Source of the DNA: a virus
IMG/VR virus record: IMGVR_UViG_3300050821_002279
Span: 1-64,000 of that record
Length of the DNA: 64,000 nucleotides
Strand: one strand, 5' to 3'
In this document: positions 6,835 to 57,166 of the stretch, one piece after another
Layout: the number at the start of each line of letters is the position of its first letter
Position numbering within the stretch: the stretch's first letter is position 1
Program-made: the position numbers and the translations under genes
The notes under the pieces: generated by a model
Seen by the model: the letters and a program-made list of their open reading frames with translations, nothing else
What the model was told of the DNA's origin: nothing
The model's database searches: none

Positions 6835-7660
6835 TTGTTTTGATCCTTTCCTTCACTCTGCATTCAACGGGCTTGTGACCGTTCACCCGGAACGATACCG
6901 GGCAAGCTGCATTACGGCCCTTATGCTCCCAGGTTCGGGAACTACGGGCTTAGGGTACACTTAAGCCATCCTCCGATCATCGCGCTATAGTTGCCTTGCG
7001 CCATCGGGGAGAACAGCAATCGCTCCCAAGTCTCACTGAGCTTGCATCAGGCAGAAGCCCGATAGCTACCTTACGAGTGCGGATTCAACATCAAACACCC
7101 GGGCCATTCTCCCCGGCACCAGGGATGCCAGCTTTCGCTTGGCACTGCGGACCTCACACAGCGAACATGCTGCGCGGTTCCCCGCTTCACCGACAATCCA
7201 ACCTCCGAGAGAGACAATGAACTATCACAGTCAAACAGTCAAGCATCGAAGCAAAGATTGTTGAAAACAACCACGGGGATAAAATGAGCTTTCCTTGCTT
7301 GTTTGGCACCTTGCTTGCTATGCGACGACAAATCATTGCAACGATATACACTTAGAACAAATGCCCGTAATCGAGCGGAAACAGGGTTTTAAGCGTTCAG
7401 ACCCCCGATCCGCTGTCATCATATTGCCTTGAGACTGTCTGCCTGATTGCCTCTGAAATATTGCATTGCATATCAGTGACTTAGCTGCGGTTTGAAAAAG
7501 ATTGGCACGATTAATGGGGTGAGACAACAGAATGCCCTATAAACGATTTTAGAGCGTTTCGAGCCTAAGCTGGCAATCGACGGGCAAAAACAGGATTGAA
7601 CGGCCCCGGGGAACTGGCGACAAGGCAAAGCCGATCAACACACAGCGCATTCAACCCAGG
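6835..7660. other. Long non-coding control region
   Basis: About 825 bases between the divergent early operon and the helix-turn-helix gene. Short open frames here lack ribosome-binding sites and protein-like composition. A hairpin TGCCA-...-TGGCA lies near 7128-7146 and there are clustered cttgctt repeats near 7295-7320. No tRNA-like fold was found. It probably holds promoters and operators for the early genes. Confidence 0.5.
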
Positions 7661-35830: not shown

Positions 35831-36437
35831 TAATATTGCGGATGGTCTCACGAAGAACTCCGCACTCCTTCGCCATGCCAGCCACAAGGCCCCATTTAGA
35901 TTTACTTGAATTGTAGCGCTGTCTTATTTTCAAAACTTGCTCCTCGGTAAACTTTGTAGTAACCGGGTGTTTCCTTGGTGGTTCGGTGAGAATTCGCTCG
36001 TCAGACCATCCTAGTTTCTTTCTTTGGTGGATTAGTTTTATAGATATGCCTGTTATTGTTTCCCATTCTTTGGCGTGGAGTGTTTGACCTTCGAACGTTA
36101 ACAAACTCCTCGGTCTCCGATTCAGCGCTTGTTCATTTGGATTTGCCCACCGGCAATTCATGGGCCAATTGTTAGCAATGCATTCAGGACACTGACCGCA
36201 CGAATAATGACCGTCATTATTTTTCCGATCTAACGATCTCCCTTCAGGACATGGCCCCATTATAGCCATGAAATTCAACTTGTCTTTAAAACCCTCACAC
36301 ATCTTAATTCCGCGACCTCCGTAGGCAAAATAATTCCAGCATTTCGGATTGCTGGTTCTTGCAAAGGCACTCCTTTGCGCGTGAAAAGCTCTAATTACTT
36401 CCTTGAAATGGACTACTTGGTTTTCAAACGGTTTCAT
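35742..36437 (-). CDS. AP2/HNH-type mobile endonuclease, paralogue of 54592
   Basis: 231 residues from ATG at 36437. YGGRGIKMCEGF, SLDRKNNDGHYSCGQCPEC, NCRWANPNEQALNRR and an AP2/HTH-like tail (GVLRETIRNIIKG). The middle block matches the gene at 54592 almost word for word in key residues. This is the compact phage HNH family (R-G-I, S-L-D-R-x-x-N-x-G-x-Y, N-C-R-W-x-x-x-x-x-Q-x-x-N-R). It runs against the surrounding late operon between terL's partner and the portal, a classic insertion. Confidence 0.8.
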   Translation of the reverse strand: MKPFENQVVHFKEVIRAFHAQRSAFARTSNPKCWNYFAYGGRGIKMCEGFKDKLNFMAIMGPCPEGRSLDRKNNDGHYSCGQCPECIANNWPMNCRWANPNEQALNRRPRSLLTFEGQTLHAKEWETITGISIKLIHQRKKLGWSDERILTEPPRKHPVTTKFTEEQVLKIRQRYNSSKSKWGLVAGMAKECGVLRETIRNIIKGRMWKNLAPSNTPTQPLPPETAPSSAR

Positions 36438-36444
36438 AACAAAA

Positions 36445-36546
36445 CTCCGCGAAACAGGTTGTAACGTTCGGCCCATTTGAGGCAAAACACCCGAAACGCG
36501 GAGCTAAATTGTCTTGATTATTAAGGTAAAACGAACCAAACGTTAC
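36445..36546. repeat. Nested inverted repeats beside the inserted HNH gene
   Basis: CTCCGCG (36445-36451) pairs with CGCGGAG (36497-36503), and GTAACGTTCGG (36461-36471) pairs with CCAAACGTTAC (36536-36546) with one mismatch. They lie between the HNH start and the portal ribosome-binding site and may be regulatory or an insertion footprint. Confidence 0.4.
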
Positions 36547-36594
36547 GGTGTGAGCATAAAACTTAACGCAAACCAAGTCAACCAAGGAGTTTAA

Positions 36595-45344: not shown

Positions 45345-45523
45345 ATGACTCAATCAGCAAGCTCGCAAGTCAATTTGGAAGGATGGGTGGATTATCTCGA
45401 TCTCCTGCCAAATCGCGTGCGGCAAAACGTAATGGAAGGCTTGGCGGGCGGCCAAAGCGTTGGAAGACCAGTTCGCCTGTTCAGCAGAGAGCATCTGCGC
45501 CAAAGGCTTCAAAAAAAGATTAA
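45341..45523 (+). CDS. Small basic GRxGG-type protein
   Basis: 60 residues, ATGA overlap with the previous gene. GRMGGLSRSPAKSRAAKRNG and GRLGGRPK are typical of small phage/bacterial basic proteins of unknown role. Its 3' half overlaps the HNH gene in another frame, so the HNH element may have inserted into it. Confidence 0.55.
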   Translation: MNDSISKLASQFGRMGGLSRSPAKSRAAKRNGRLGGRPKRWKTSSPVQQRASAPKASKKD

Positions 45524-45956
45524 TGTTGACCTAGTATCAGGTTGCTGGAATTGGACTGGATACATAATGAAAAATGGATACGCAACAATAGGAGTCCATC
45601 ATGCTAAGATTTTGATTCATAGATTATCGTGGGTCTTATTTGTCGGCTCTATCCCGCTTGGACTATGCGTCCTTCATCACTGCGACAACCGCAAGTGTTG
45701 CAACTGGGAGCACCTTTTTACTGGAACTAATCAGGAAAACCAAGACGATTGCAGACAGAAAGGAAGACATCGCTGGCTGAGGGGTGAATTGCATCCAAAG
45801 CGTATCCTGACAGAGCTAGAAGTAATTGCAATAAAACAACGACACGCGAGCACTGGAGAATCTTTTACTAGCATCTCCCTAGATTACCCTTCTGTCCATA
45901 AAGATACAATTCGGGCGATTCTTAATAATAAATCTTGGGGTTGGCTGAATCCATGA
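45432..45956 (+). CDS. HNH endonuclease (HNH_3 type)
   Basis: 174 residues if started at ATG 45432; a later unconventional start near 45480 is possible since the conserved part begins at RLFSREHLRQRL. GCWNWTGYIMKNGYATI, HRLSWVLFVGSIPLGLCVLH, HCDNRKCCNWEHLF, GTNQENQDDCRQKGRH and GELHPKRILTELEV are the full HNH_3 core plus the usual helix-turn-helix. Mobile nuclease inserted in the modification island. Confidence 0.85.
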   Translation: MEGLAGGQSVGRPVRLFSREHLRQRLQKKINVDLVSGCWNWTGYIMKNGYATIGVHHAKILIHRLSWVLFVGSIPLGLCVLHHCDNRKCCNWEHLFTGTNQENQDDCRQKGRHRWLRGELHPKRILTELEVIAIKQRHASTGESFTSISLDYPSVHKDTIRAILNNKSWGWLNP

Positions 45957-52645: not shown

Positions 52646-54061
52646 ATGATATTGAACCACATCCTGCGCAGTCCCGCCGCTGTTGAAGGCACAACTGAAG
52701 CCAAATCCGCCGAAGACCTGCAACTTGGAATGGGCGAATGGGTCGAAGCCCTGCCGAATCTCGAAAACGACGGCCCGATTCAACCGAACGAACCACCACC
52801 GCCACAGCGAAAAAAGGAATCCGATGGCACAACTACTCCGCAACCTACAGGAGATCGAGGCACTGGATTGCCTGGGGCTGCTAAGCCTGCAAGCGAGTCC
52901 GCTGGCCAGCCTGCCGATGCCGCTCAAAAGCAGCGATTGGCCGATGAGTCTGCTAAAGCTGCGGCGGCTGATAAGGCGAAGGCTGAAGCTGAAGCTGCGG
53001 CTGCTAAAGCGGCTGAAGAAGCCAAGAAAGCCGAAGAAGCGGCGAAGAAGGTCGAACCGGGGCAGGAAAAGTGGCCTCGCAACTCAAGCGACTGGGACAA
53101 GTACAAGAAGGTTCACGCCGATAAGGAGGCAAAGCTTCAGGCCGAAATCGACGCCCGGGAAGCGAAGCTCAAGGACATGGAGACCCAGCTTAAAACCGTT
53201 CAAGAAACGGCTGCAAAGGCTGGAGAAGCATCACCGGAAGTCACGTCCAAGCTTCAACGCCTTGAAAAAGAGAACGAAGAGATGTCAAAACGTCTCCAAG
53301 TTCTCGACGTAACGCAGCATCCAAAGTTCCAGGCATACTTCGAAAACAAGGTCGCCGCGCAAAAAGAGCTTGGCAAGCGCATCGTCGGTGCGGAAAAAGG
53401 CCCAGCATTCGAAAAGCTGCTGGCACTCCCCGACTCCGATTACAAAAACCAGCAGATCGAGGAATTCGTTTCCGATCTCCCCATTCTCCAGCAATCACGT
53501 ATAGGGGCTGTCCTGAATGCCTTGGAAGGGATTAACCAAGAGAAGACGGCGGAAATCGCCAAAGCCGGGGAACACCGGACGCAGTTAACCGAGGAGCAGA
53601 AGGTTAAACAGGCGCAGAACGCAGCGGCGAAGGAGCGCGTCATCAACGAGGTTACAGCCCAGATAACTTCTGAAAAGGACGGCATGGCGATATTCCAGAA
53701 ACGCGCTGATGATGTCGCATGGAATCAGGCCGTGGATGAGCGCATTGCCACCGCCAAGAAGCTTTTGAGCGGGCAAGGACTCAAACCCGCCGACATTGTG
53801 AGAGCCGCCTTCCACGCGACGGCGGTACCCGCGATTCTCCAGGCGTACCAAAACGACATGAAGGAGAGCCAGGAAACGATTACTAAGCTCGAAGAGCAGG
53901 TGAAAGCTCTCACAGCGGCTCAACCTGGGGCCGGAAAAGGCGGGACGGGAAGCGCGGCTAATGGGGATACGACTCCGAGAGCGGATCTCAAGGCTGGAAT
54001 GAATCCGATGGAAGCAACGAACGCATGGACGAAGAATTTGCCGGGATGGGGAGAAAGTTAA
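52646..54061 (+). CDS. Scaffold protein
   Basis: 471 residues. Disordered acidic/Pro-rich N-terminus, Ala/Lys/Glu-rich coiled coil at about 100-140 and 165-230, helical C-terminal half and a Gly/Ser-rich tail ending NPMEATNAWTKNLPGWGES. Size, charge pattern and position directly before the capsid genes fit an internal scaffolding protein that is released during maturation. I did not see a protease domain. Confidence 0.7.
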   Translation: MILNHILRSPAAVEGTTEAKSAEDLQLGMGEWVEALPNLENDGPIQPNEPPPPQRKKESDGTTTPQPTGDRGTGLPGAAKPASESAGQPADAAQKQRLADESAKAAAADKAKAEAEAAAAKAAEEAKKAEEAAKKVEPGQEKWPRNSSDWDKYKKVHADKEAKLQAEIDAREAKLKDMETQLKTVQETAAKAGEASPEVTSKLQRLEKENEEMSKRLQVLDVTQHPKFQAYFENKVAAQKELGKRIVGAEKGPAFEKLLALPDSDYKNQQIEEFVSDLPILQQSRIGAVLNALEGINQEKTAEIAKAGEHRTQLTEEQKVKQAQNAAAKERVINEVTAQITSEKDGMAIFQKRADDVAWNQAVDERIATAKKLLSGQGLKPADIVRAAFHATAVPAILQAYQNDMKESQETITKLEEQVKALTAAQPGAGKGGTGSAANGDTTPRADLKAGMNPMEATNAWTKNLPGWGES

Positions 54062-54083: not shown

Positions 54084-54392
54084 ATGCATTACAAGAATGG
54101 TAGGGTAGCGAAAAACGGGGATAAGGTTGTTATCGTTACGACCGGACAAAGCGGCATCCTTTACAACGCGGTCGCCGGAAACGATTACTGCAATGGCAGG
54201 CTGGCGCAGATGAGGAATGATGACCCATGCCCAAATCTCAAGGAATGTCTGCATCTTGACGATGTTGCGGCGGCGGGAGTGCCCGATTCAACGCAAGCGC
54301 AACTTTCAGTTCTGAATACCCAAGGTGAAGCGGCGGCAGTACCGGCAACTACCGAAACAGTCGCCACTGAAGCGCCTCCCGCAGCAACGTAA
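54084..54392 (+). CDS. Small putative head protein
   Basis: 102 residues. HYKNGRVAKNGDKVVIVTTG and GILYNAVAGNDYCNGRLAQM form a compact beta domain; the Ala/Thr/Pro-rich tail looks disordered. Between scaffold and capsid, a decoration or head-stabilising role is possible. A terminator follows. Confidence 0.5.
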   Translation: MHYKNGRVAKNGDKVVIVTTGQSGILYNAVAGNDYCNGRLAQMRNDDPCPNLKECLHLDDVAAAGVPDSTQAQLSVLNTQGEAAAVPATTETVATEAPPAAT

Positions 54393-54418
54393 TTTCCCAA
54401 GCTCGCCACCGTTCCCAC

Positions 54419-54454
54419 AACTCCCGCTGAAGGACACGGCGGGAGTTTCTGTTT
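54419..54454 (+). terminator. Rho-independent terminator after the 54084 gene
   Basis: AACTCCCGC (54419-54427) and GCGGGAGTT (54439-54447) pair perfectly across an 11-base loop, followed by TCTGTTT. It would end or attenuate transcription before the capsid region. Confidence 0.7.
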
Positions 54455-54519
54455 GACAAAATTGTTCTACGTGGTACTTTTGGGGCATTCGAGTAATACC
54501 GAATGAATCCAAACCAAAA

Positions 54520-54591
54520 CAATTAGCCCTCGGCAGTGTCCCTTTCCGCACAGGATCGGGAGTATTACCACTGTCGGGGGCGATTGGTTTT
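54520..54591 (+). promoter_or_regulatory. Long hairpin directly before the HNH-type gene
   Basis: CAATTAGCCCTCGGCAGTG (54520-54538) pairs with CACTGTCGGGGGCGATTG (54569-54586): 18 base pairs with G-U pairs and one bulge, closing a 30-base loop that itself holds TCCC/GGGA. It is followed by GTTTT and then the ATG at 54592, so it can act as a terminator/attenuator or sequester the start. Confidence 0.55.
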
Positions 54592-55254
54592 ATGAACGAC
54601 CTGCCTTATAAAAACGATCTCAATGGTAAAATGTTCGGACAGCTTTACGTCAGGAAATTCGCTGGAAAAGGCGAGGATGGAATGAGCCTTTGGGAATGCC
54701 GATGCTATCGCTGTTTTCGAATCCTTAATGTACGAGCGCAATCGCTGGTTCGTGGTCAGTCTAAAACGTGCGGCTGTTCAAATATCACTCACGGGCTAAC
54801 TCGCGGGCCGGTTGGAACGGAAAAGCCTACCGAATACAAATCGTGGATTCATGCGAAAGGTAGATGTTTCGACCCCGAACATCAGGCATGGAACGATTAT
54901 GGAGGCAGGGGAATTACAATGTGTGCCGGATGGAAACACGATTACGCTCAATTTTACAAAGACCTTGGGCCAAAGCCGGAACGCACATCGTTAGATCGTC
55001 TAGATAACAACGGTCACTACTCCTGCGGCCATTGCGAGGAGTGTCTTTCAAAAGGATGGAAGGCGAATTGTGCTTGGAGGACGCCTAAAGAGCAATGCCG
55101 CAATCGACGCAGCACTACGTTTTACGAGGTCGATGGCAAGCGCCGGTCGCTCGCGGCATGGGCTGATGAGCTAAACGTTGATATTAAAGTTCTTTGGAAG
55201 AGATTGCGGACGCTCAGAATGCCAGCAGCTATCGCGCTTTCTAAAAGGGCTTGA
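54592..55254 (+). CDS. AP2/HNH-type mobile endonuclease, paralogue of 35742
   Basis: 220 residues. N-terminal C-R-C-Y-R-C-F and TCGCSN zinc-binding part, then YGGRGITMCAGWKHDYAQFY, TSLDRLDNNGHYSCGHCEEC, NCAWRTPKEQCRNRR and a helix-turn-helix-like tail. The R-G-I, S-L-D-R-x-D-N-N-G-x-Y and N-C-x-W-x-T-x-x-x-Q-x-x-N-R core is that of compact phage HNH nucleases. It sits 300 bases upstream of the intron-containing capsid gene, so it could promote homing of that intron. Confidence 0.8.
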   Translation: MNDLPYKNDLNGKMFGQLYVRKFAGKGEDGMSLWECRCYRCFRILNVRAQSLVRGQSKTCGCSNITHGLTRGPVGTEKPTEYKSWIHAKGRCFDPEHQAWNDYGGRGITMCAGWKHDYAQFYKDLGPKPERTSLDRLDNNGHYSCGHCEECLSKGWKANCAWRTPKEQCRNRRSTTFYEVDGKRRSLAAWADELNVDIKVLWKRLRTLRMPAAIALSKRA

Positions 55255-55552
55255 CAGGGTTCACAACATAAGATAGTTCTCTTCTCAGATTCGGTGATCG
55301 CATCCCGTGGACGCCAGGGGGCCGAAGCGAGACAAGATCGCGTGTCTGTAAGTTGCCTACGATTGGTTACAAGGCTGGGTGTGGCTAACACCTAACCAAA
55401 GGCAGCAGCAACAGAGCGCAGCATCCTGACAAGGTGCATGCCGCCAAAGTCGCCATCCCAGGCGACAGTCACCCCCCCCGATAAACGCAAGCGGTATGTA
55501 GTGTGCCTGTGTGGGCCACTCGAATCCGTAACAATCTTAAAGACAACAATTT
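55255..55552 (+). other. Structured non-coding leader of the capsid gene
   Basis: No gene is seen. Several stems are visible: TTGGTTA...TAACCAA extended outward by GCCT/AGGC (about 55358-55408) with an inner GGTGT/ACACC; GTCGCC-ATCCCA-GGCGAC (55448-55465); AGACA/TGTCT around 55331-55348. A C8 run lies at 55472-55479. This density of helices suggests a structured RNA or intron remnant, not simple spacer. Confidence 0.45.
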
Positions 55553-57166
55553 ATGGCATGCACAACCCCCTTCGACGTACTACGGGCGAAGGTTGAAGAT
55601 TTGGGACCGATAAACTGATGTCGCCGCATTAGCGTAGCGCAAAAGTGCTTATGCGAGAAAATCTGGAAAATTCGGGGGAACTGCTTTGTGGCAATAGCGC
55701 ACCCAAAGGACAATCCCGAGCCGAGCCGAGTAATACCGGAAGGTGTAACGACTATGCCGCCAATCGAGAGGTTGGTAGCCGCCCCAGAGCCCGATCTACC
55801 GGGCATGATATAGTCTGAACCGGCAGGTAACTGCTGGAGCTTGGCAGAAATGACCAAGCCGCCCCGCAAGAGGTTGTAACACACTTGGTTACTCGTCCGC
55901 GCAAGCTGGAAAGATCCGTGGCTTAACCTCATTCCACGGGATAATTACCCCCAAGGTGCCGGGTACGTCCGTTCGCAGTTCACAATCGGTCGGTCGGAGC
56001 CTGCAACTGATGAGGAAACTTGGAATGCTATCGCGGCGATTGATTCCAATGCTAATCCCAACGGCGCTTGTAACCTGACCTACAATCAGACGTACGTGGG
56101 GCAGGTCGAAGCGCAGTACAAACCCGAGAACTTCGGCCTGATGGGTCCGCTCATCTGCCAAGACGACCTCGTGATGTATTGGAACTCCAAAGCGTTCTGG
56201 GAGCGGTATTTCCAAGCCCTTGAAAAACGCAATCGCAAGTCGATCATCAACCGGATCGGCAATGTGTACCGGCAATACTCCAGCAAAGCGGCGGCAAACG
56301 CGAGCTTTGCGTTCACTGCTGGCGACTTCACTACCCAGCCCGCGCCATCGTCTCCTAACGTGACTTCCCTGCAAGGCGGTAACGTTCCGACTTCCGAGCT
56401 TACCCAGGAAATGCTGGACAGCACGGCGGTCGAACTCGCTGAAGAGGGTGCGGACGAACCCAATTCGAACGGCTGGATCACGCAGGGGCCGGATGGTCCT
56501 GTTTATCCCCTGTATATCGGTCAGACGATGAGCCATCGCTTGCTGCTTAACAACAGCGAGTTGCGCTCTGACTTCAACCAGTCGTTCCAGGGCTGGGGCG
56601 ACACTAACCCGGTGATTAAACGCCTTGGCGCGTCTCGCATCATCAAGAACTTCCGGCACGTCATCAACCGCTTCCCGGCGCGTTGGACGATGCAGCAGGT
56701 TGACCTTACCGGCGCACAGGGACAGGGCGTTGGATTCGTTTACGGTGCCAATGACGGCATCCTGAAGCGTGTTCCGACGTGGCAGATGTCCACAGCGTCC
56801 ATCAACGCGACCAAGGGGCAGGTTGCCATTGTTAACCCCTCGTGGCGCAATCCGGCGCTGGCGCAGTACGAAAGCTGCGAAGTGCTCAATCCTTGGGTAA
56901 TGACTGAGGAAGTCCTGATGCCGATGAACTCGGCTCCCGGGATGAAGCTCAACGCGCAGAACTACTTCGGCGAATGGCACTTCGTTACCGGCAATGATGC
57001 CCTCCTTGGCATCGCAAGCTGCACGGGCGTCCAAGACCCGATGAAGAAGTACGGGCGACATTTCGCGGAATACCGTCATGCACTCCGTCCTATGTTCCCG
57101 TTGTACGGGCGCATGATCATGTTCGTTCGGTGTTCCTCGGCGTTCGATACAGTTACCTGCTCGTAA
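55553..57166 (+). CDS. Major capsid protein, split by a group I intron
   Basis: Exon 1 starts at ATG 55553 (MACTTPFDVLRAKV) and runs into a stop at 55616 if unspliced. The downstream frame is open from before 55889 to the stop at 57166: RASWKDPWLNLIPRDNYPQG, TIGRSEPATDEETWNAIAAI, NQTYVGQVEAQYKPENFGLM, SELTQEMLDSTAVELAEEGA, then GRHFAEYRHALRPMFPLYGR. Joining 55553-55594 to 55889-57166 gives 439 residues, about the size of HK97-fold capsid proteins, and removes the stop. The exact splice sites are inferred; an exon 1 extending to about 55616 (adding EDLGPIN) is an alternative. The segment from 56096 alone would lack the N-terminus. Confidence 0.75.
55595..55888 (+). ncRNA. Group I intron in the capsid gene
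   Basis: The core is legible. P-like AATTCGGGGGAA (55669-55680) pairs with Q-like AATCCCGAGCC (55712-55722) as P4. R-like GTGTAACGACTATGCC (55743-55758) and S-like ATGATATAGTCTGAAC (55805-55820) form P7 as GACTAT/ATAGTC. P2 is CGCAT...ATGCG (about 55626-55656), P9 is CGGCAG-GTAA-CTGCTG with a GNRA-type loop (55821-55836), then GCTTGG/CCAAGC (55839-55859). Exon end GGTT pairs with GACC (55605-55608) as P1 with the U-G wobble at the splice site. The intron has no internal ORF. Boundaries are inferred. Confidence 0.8.

Follow-up and report, generated by a model that had tools for sequence, protein, structure and literature searches.

How is a conserved phage protein made from a reading frame that closes soon after its start codon and is open again only further downstream? 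The question arises in a stretch of 64,000 nucleotides (the window) that forms part of a 76,955-base IMG/VR virus record. In the window sequence the frame starting with ATG at 55553 runs into TGA at 55616-55618; a long open frame then extends over 55880-57166. In the preliminary description this arrangement was read as a major capsid gene split by a group I intron. We consider it very probable that a group I intron of 276 nt, predicted from sequence to splice itself out, resides here in a conserved gene of an uncultured phage, most likely that for the major capsid protein.

Predicted splice junction and intron-free relatives

The interrupted region comprises three parts:

55553-55611, + strand: 5' exon of 19 codons and two further bases (MACTTPFDVLRAKVEDLGP), with U as its final base; the N-termini of the relatives L006, L002 and L003, which are uninterrupted, align with it
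55612-55887, + strand: group I intron of 276 nt that ends with G and includes the in-frame UGA (55616-55618)
55888-57166, + strand: 3' exon, which encodes the remaining capsid-candidate protein and supplies the stop codon; 55-84% identity to the intron-free L003, L002 and L006

Relatives were drawn from IMG/VR and from one metagenome-assembled genome, and all seven distinct relatives that could be aligned are uninterrupted at the insertion place. The junction 55611/55888 is fixed by alignment to these intron-free genes. Joining the two bases gives MACTTPFDVLRAKVEDLGPMLLVRASWKDPW and a frame of 445 codons, which has the same length as that of the closest relative, L006 (84% identity), and aligns with it without a single gap; the uninterrupted counterpart in L006 reads MACTNPFDVLRAKTEDLGPHLLVRASWKDPW. 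Removal of the intron restores the host frame seen in the intron-free relatives. A product of 439 residues had originally been proposed, and the junction on which that figure was based is slightly displaced from the one given by the relatives, which leads to 445 residues. Nine pairings of a U-ending 5' site with a G-ending 3' site near the boundaries leave the frame open, and among these only 55611/55887 retains both the length of the relatives and the motif LLVRASW.

Both exons are under purifying selection. Compared with L006, the 19 codons of exon 1 yield a pN of 0.097 and a pS of 0.855, the corresponding values for the 3' exon being 0.11 and 0.70 and those for the entire gene 0.112 and 0.702. 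Taken at the level of sequence, the intron-free relatives and the RNA model described below strongly support the earlier proposal that the gene is split and that its premature stop would be removed by splicing. The 84% identical capsid-candidate gene of L006 (JAGWWT010000007.1) sits in an assembly labelled Patescibacteria.

Identity of the interrupted gene

The interrupted gene is probably the major capsid gene, an assignment based on gene order, size, conservation and the following neighbours:

52646-54061, + strand: coiled-coil-like gene, scaffold-like by position; 44% identical to the gene at the same place in L006
57272-57556, + strand: small conserved gene directly downstream; short proteins of the VEFTPPxxFxxPE...-type follow the capsid candidate in L002, L003, L006 and L021

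Genes resembling that at 52646-54061 in size and make-up are also present in L002, L003 and L021. In several relatives the capsid candidate, well conserved and roughly 400-490 residues long, is encoded between a scaffold-like gene of coiled-coil type and a small gene that is also conserved. The claim of a major capsid gene, as put forward in the preliminary description, agrees with size, conservation and gene order, while sequence and fold searches recognised nothing: the capsid-candidate family had no matches in Pfam, PHROG, NCBIfam, PDB or INPHARED, the structure models of the protein were poor (mean pLDDT 27 and 36), and all matches in fold searches with the second model (pLDDT 36) had E-values above 1.

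It is for these reasons that the intron might be real and yet reside in a gene for another conserved phage protein. Besides the absence of family matches and the unusable fold models, such a reading draws on a gene order that is anchored by neither a recognised terminase nor a recognised portal gene. A search for terminase (PF03237) returned none in the record to which the window belongs, and the PF03237 matches in the assembly behind L006 fall on numbered contigs that may be unrelated to the phage contig. A conserved protein of this size between scaffold-like and small conserved genes nevertheless fits a capsid gene, and we regard a different function as unlikely, albeit worth serious consideration. 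ARAGORN detected no tRNA in the window.

Intron fold and covariance evidence

The capsid-candidate gene is interrupted by an RNA that can be folded into a group I catalytic core comprising P3 to P9 with Q, R and S elements, and all core helices form. Helices were assigned by hand:

55608-55623, + strand: P1, exon CGAU (55608-55611) with guide GUCG (55620-55623), U.G at the 5' splice site
55662-55788, + strand: P3, UCUGG (55662-55666) with CCAGA (55784-55788)
55671-55744, + strand: P4 UUCGGG/CCCGAG, P5 CUUUG/CAAAG and P6 GCC/GGU with Q and R elements; the core is similar to known phage introns
55750-55815, + strand: P7, GACUAU (55750-55755) with AUAGUC (55810-55815), a perfect 6-bp helix
55760-55775 and 55789-55804, + strand: P7.1-like hairpin and P8, respectively, both within P7
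55820-55837, + strand: P9, CCGGCAG-GUAA-CUGCUGG, with a GNRA-type GUAA loop
about 55839-55859, + strand: P9.1 (P9 and P9.1 together 55820-55860)

The core elements, the perfect P7 and the GNRA-capped P9 noticed at the outset are all found where they had been placed between the exons. U55611, which ends exon 1, pairs with G55620 in P1, and the intron ends with G55887. The hairpin between P7 and the 3' strand of P3 suggests what we presume to be subgroup IA. In 12 introns P3 occurs at a near-constant distance from P4 and P8, and its letters differ yet pair, that is the changes are compensated; in shuffles preserving the composition of the two stretches in the window, a helix arose at the expected place in 0.9% of cases. 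The calculated folding energy (-91.6 kcal/mol for the group I fold without P3 versus -94.1 kcal/mol for the unconstrained minimum) is compatible with a group I fold but does not demand it.

At gathering thresholds, Rfam gave no matches in the whole window, so we turned to relaxed thresholds and to an independent model. Under relaxed settings, the group I model RF00028 (Intron_gpI) matched 55612-55837 with 29.2 bits, which is below its gathering score of 50. The E-values of this match were 8.8e-5 for a 3.3 kb region, 0.0017 for the whole window and 4.8e-7 for a single-family search of the record. The same relaxed search of the window pointed to a candidate type-P1 twister ribozyme (RF03160) at 6850-6918 on the minus strand (42.6 bits, the gathering score being 67.2; the E-value for the whole window is 5.1e-6).

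When phage records were searched by BLAST with the 276-nt intron, the core gave short, weak matches, and an RF00028 match of 48 to 103 bits, in ten cases above the gathering score, is carried by 11 of the 13 loci that were fetched. One of these 11 introns is the annotated group I intron in psbA of Synechococcus phage S-CBWM1. A covariance model, R1, was constructed from an alignment of the 11 phage introns with the window excluded, and it matched 55612-55837 with 99.3 bits and an E-value of 2e-23, a score that is partly circular and somewhat inflated in P4 to P6, where most of the BLAST similarity by which the introns had been picked is located; the helices outside P4 to P6 are less affected, and models of this kind give only approximate E-values. 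R1 matched nothing in six loci with intron-free relatives. A second, weak R1 match in the window (36395-36568; E-value 0.53, 10 bits) we take as chance. IMG/VR contained no exact match to a 22-base piece of the intron.

A degenerate remnant that has lost splicing and leaves the capsid-candidate gene broken or internally started would be consistent with the RF00028 score below the gathering level and with the absence near the 3' strand of P3 of some bases common to other introns, namely GAAGCG, which precedes this strand in most of them. On the other hand, all core helices are intact, the R1 score is high, and exon 1 is kept under purifying selection along with exon 2. Since exon 1 would otherwise decay, its conservation disfavours a long-standing loss of splicing, and we consider such a remnant improbable.

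For a functional intron, the following course of events is proposed. In the transcript, the intron would fold through P3 to P9 and bind guanosine at P7, while P1, with the U.G pair at the cut, would present the 5' splice site, located after 55611. At the other end, the 3' splice site would be marked by G55887, the last base of the intron. By two transesterifications, ...GGACCGAU would be joined to GUUACUCGUC..., the in-frame UGA would be lost and the 445-residue protein could be made.

The adjoining HNH gene, the leader and known phage introns

Two further elements lie directly upstream of the 5' exon, the first of which does not appear in the preliminary description:

54592-55254, + strand: free-standing HNH endonuclease gene (220 aa; phrog_374, E 1.2e-43), upstream of the leader and outside the intron
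55288-55552, + strand: conserved non-coding leader preceding the 5' exon, alignable with L006 2441-2699

Proteins similar to the HNH endonuclease occur in 759 phage records, and no close relative was found in IMG/VR. The gene is absent at this junction from L006 and L002, and in the matching interval of L021 another HNH gene is found. Situated between the scaffold-like gene and the capsid candidate, the interval 54084-55254 (L021 2456-3046) resembles an insertion hotspot, since its HNH gene differs between the window and L021 and is missing from L006 and L002. A second HNH endonuclease gene is located at 45345-45956 (phrog_1872, E 1.2e-27). Short open reading frames across the intron on both strands had no PHROG family matches, so that an endonuclease gene adjoins an intron without a recognisable endonuclease of its own. 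By analogy with collaborative homing, the HNH enzyme may aid the spread of the intron by cleaving intron-free copies of the gene.

The leader appears to be structured: in a two-sequence consensus fold of the window and L006, eight pairs are changed on both sides. In IMG/VR a short leader motif matched a single contig, which is that of L003; of the loci fetched, only the record of the window, the contig of L003 and L006 have it. It is a speculative idea, to which we attach very little probability, that structured leader, intron and HNH gene form a functional unit, with a new leader RNA and intron splicing jointly governing when or how strongly the capsid protein is made. Many group I introns carry an endonuclease gene inside, and 298 bases separate the HNH gene from the ATG downstream of it; a longer intron enclosing this gene, with the 5' exon further upstream, is nonetheless rejected as highly implausible, as the group I core and P1 are contained entirely within 55608-55887 and in relatives lacking the HNH gene the protein begins at the position equivalent to 55553, preceded by the same leader.

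The 276-nt intron can be compared with several established systems. In mycobacteriophage LittleE, an intron of about 819 bp with an endonuclease gene inside, most likely of group I, interrupts the major capsid gene, and RT-PCR together with N-terminal sequencing proved that it is spliced (PMC3706429). Both cases concern a phage major capsid gene, a candidate one here, in both exon 1 ends with U and the intron with G, and in both intron-free relatives restore the frame. The intron reported here differs in its smaller size, its clear group I core, the location of the endonuclease gene outside and in that capsid identity and splicing are predicted. Lactococcal phage Tuc2009, known here from a citation, likewise has a group I intron in a capsid gene. 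For the terminase gene of phage ICP1, an endonuclease gene beside the N-terminal exon has been described under the term collaborative homing (PMC10448857). There, too, an intron without its own endonuclease gene is accompanied by a free-standing one adjoining the N-terminal exon, but a terminase gene and a T5orf172 endonuclease are involved, whereas an HNH endonuclease adjoins a capsid candidate in our case. With small phage group I introns such as intron 2 of S-CBWM1 psbA and those in terminase and reductase genes, the window intron shares core letters and helix positions, but it lacks some bases before the 3' strand of P3 and has a lower RF00028 score.

Group I introns are known to split essential phage genes, many with metatranscriptome support (PMC12363816). 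As introns in phage capsid genes have already been published, the element described here comes as a limited surprise and is a sound further example. What it contributes is an intron that lacks an endonuclease gene of its own and is adjoined by an HNH gene, in a phage lineage remote from those in culture. If the intron is spliced, an intron-blind gene caller would miss the true N-terminus, and the output of an abundant virion protein would depend on a ribozyme situated 59 bases into its coding sequence.
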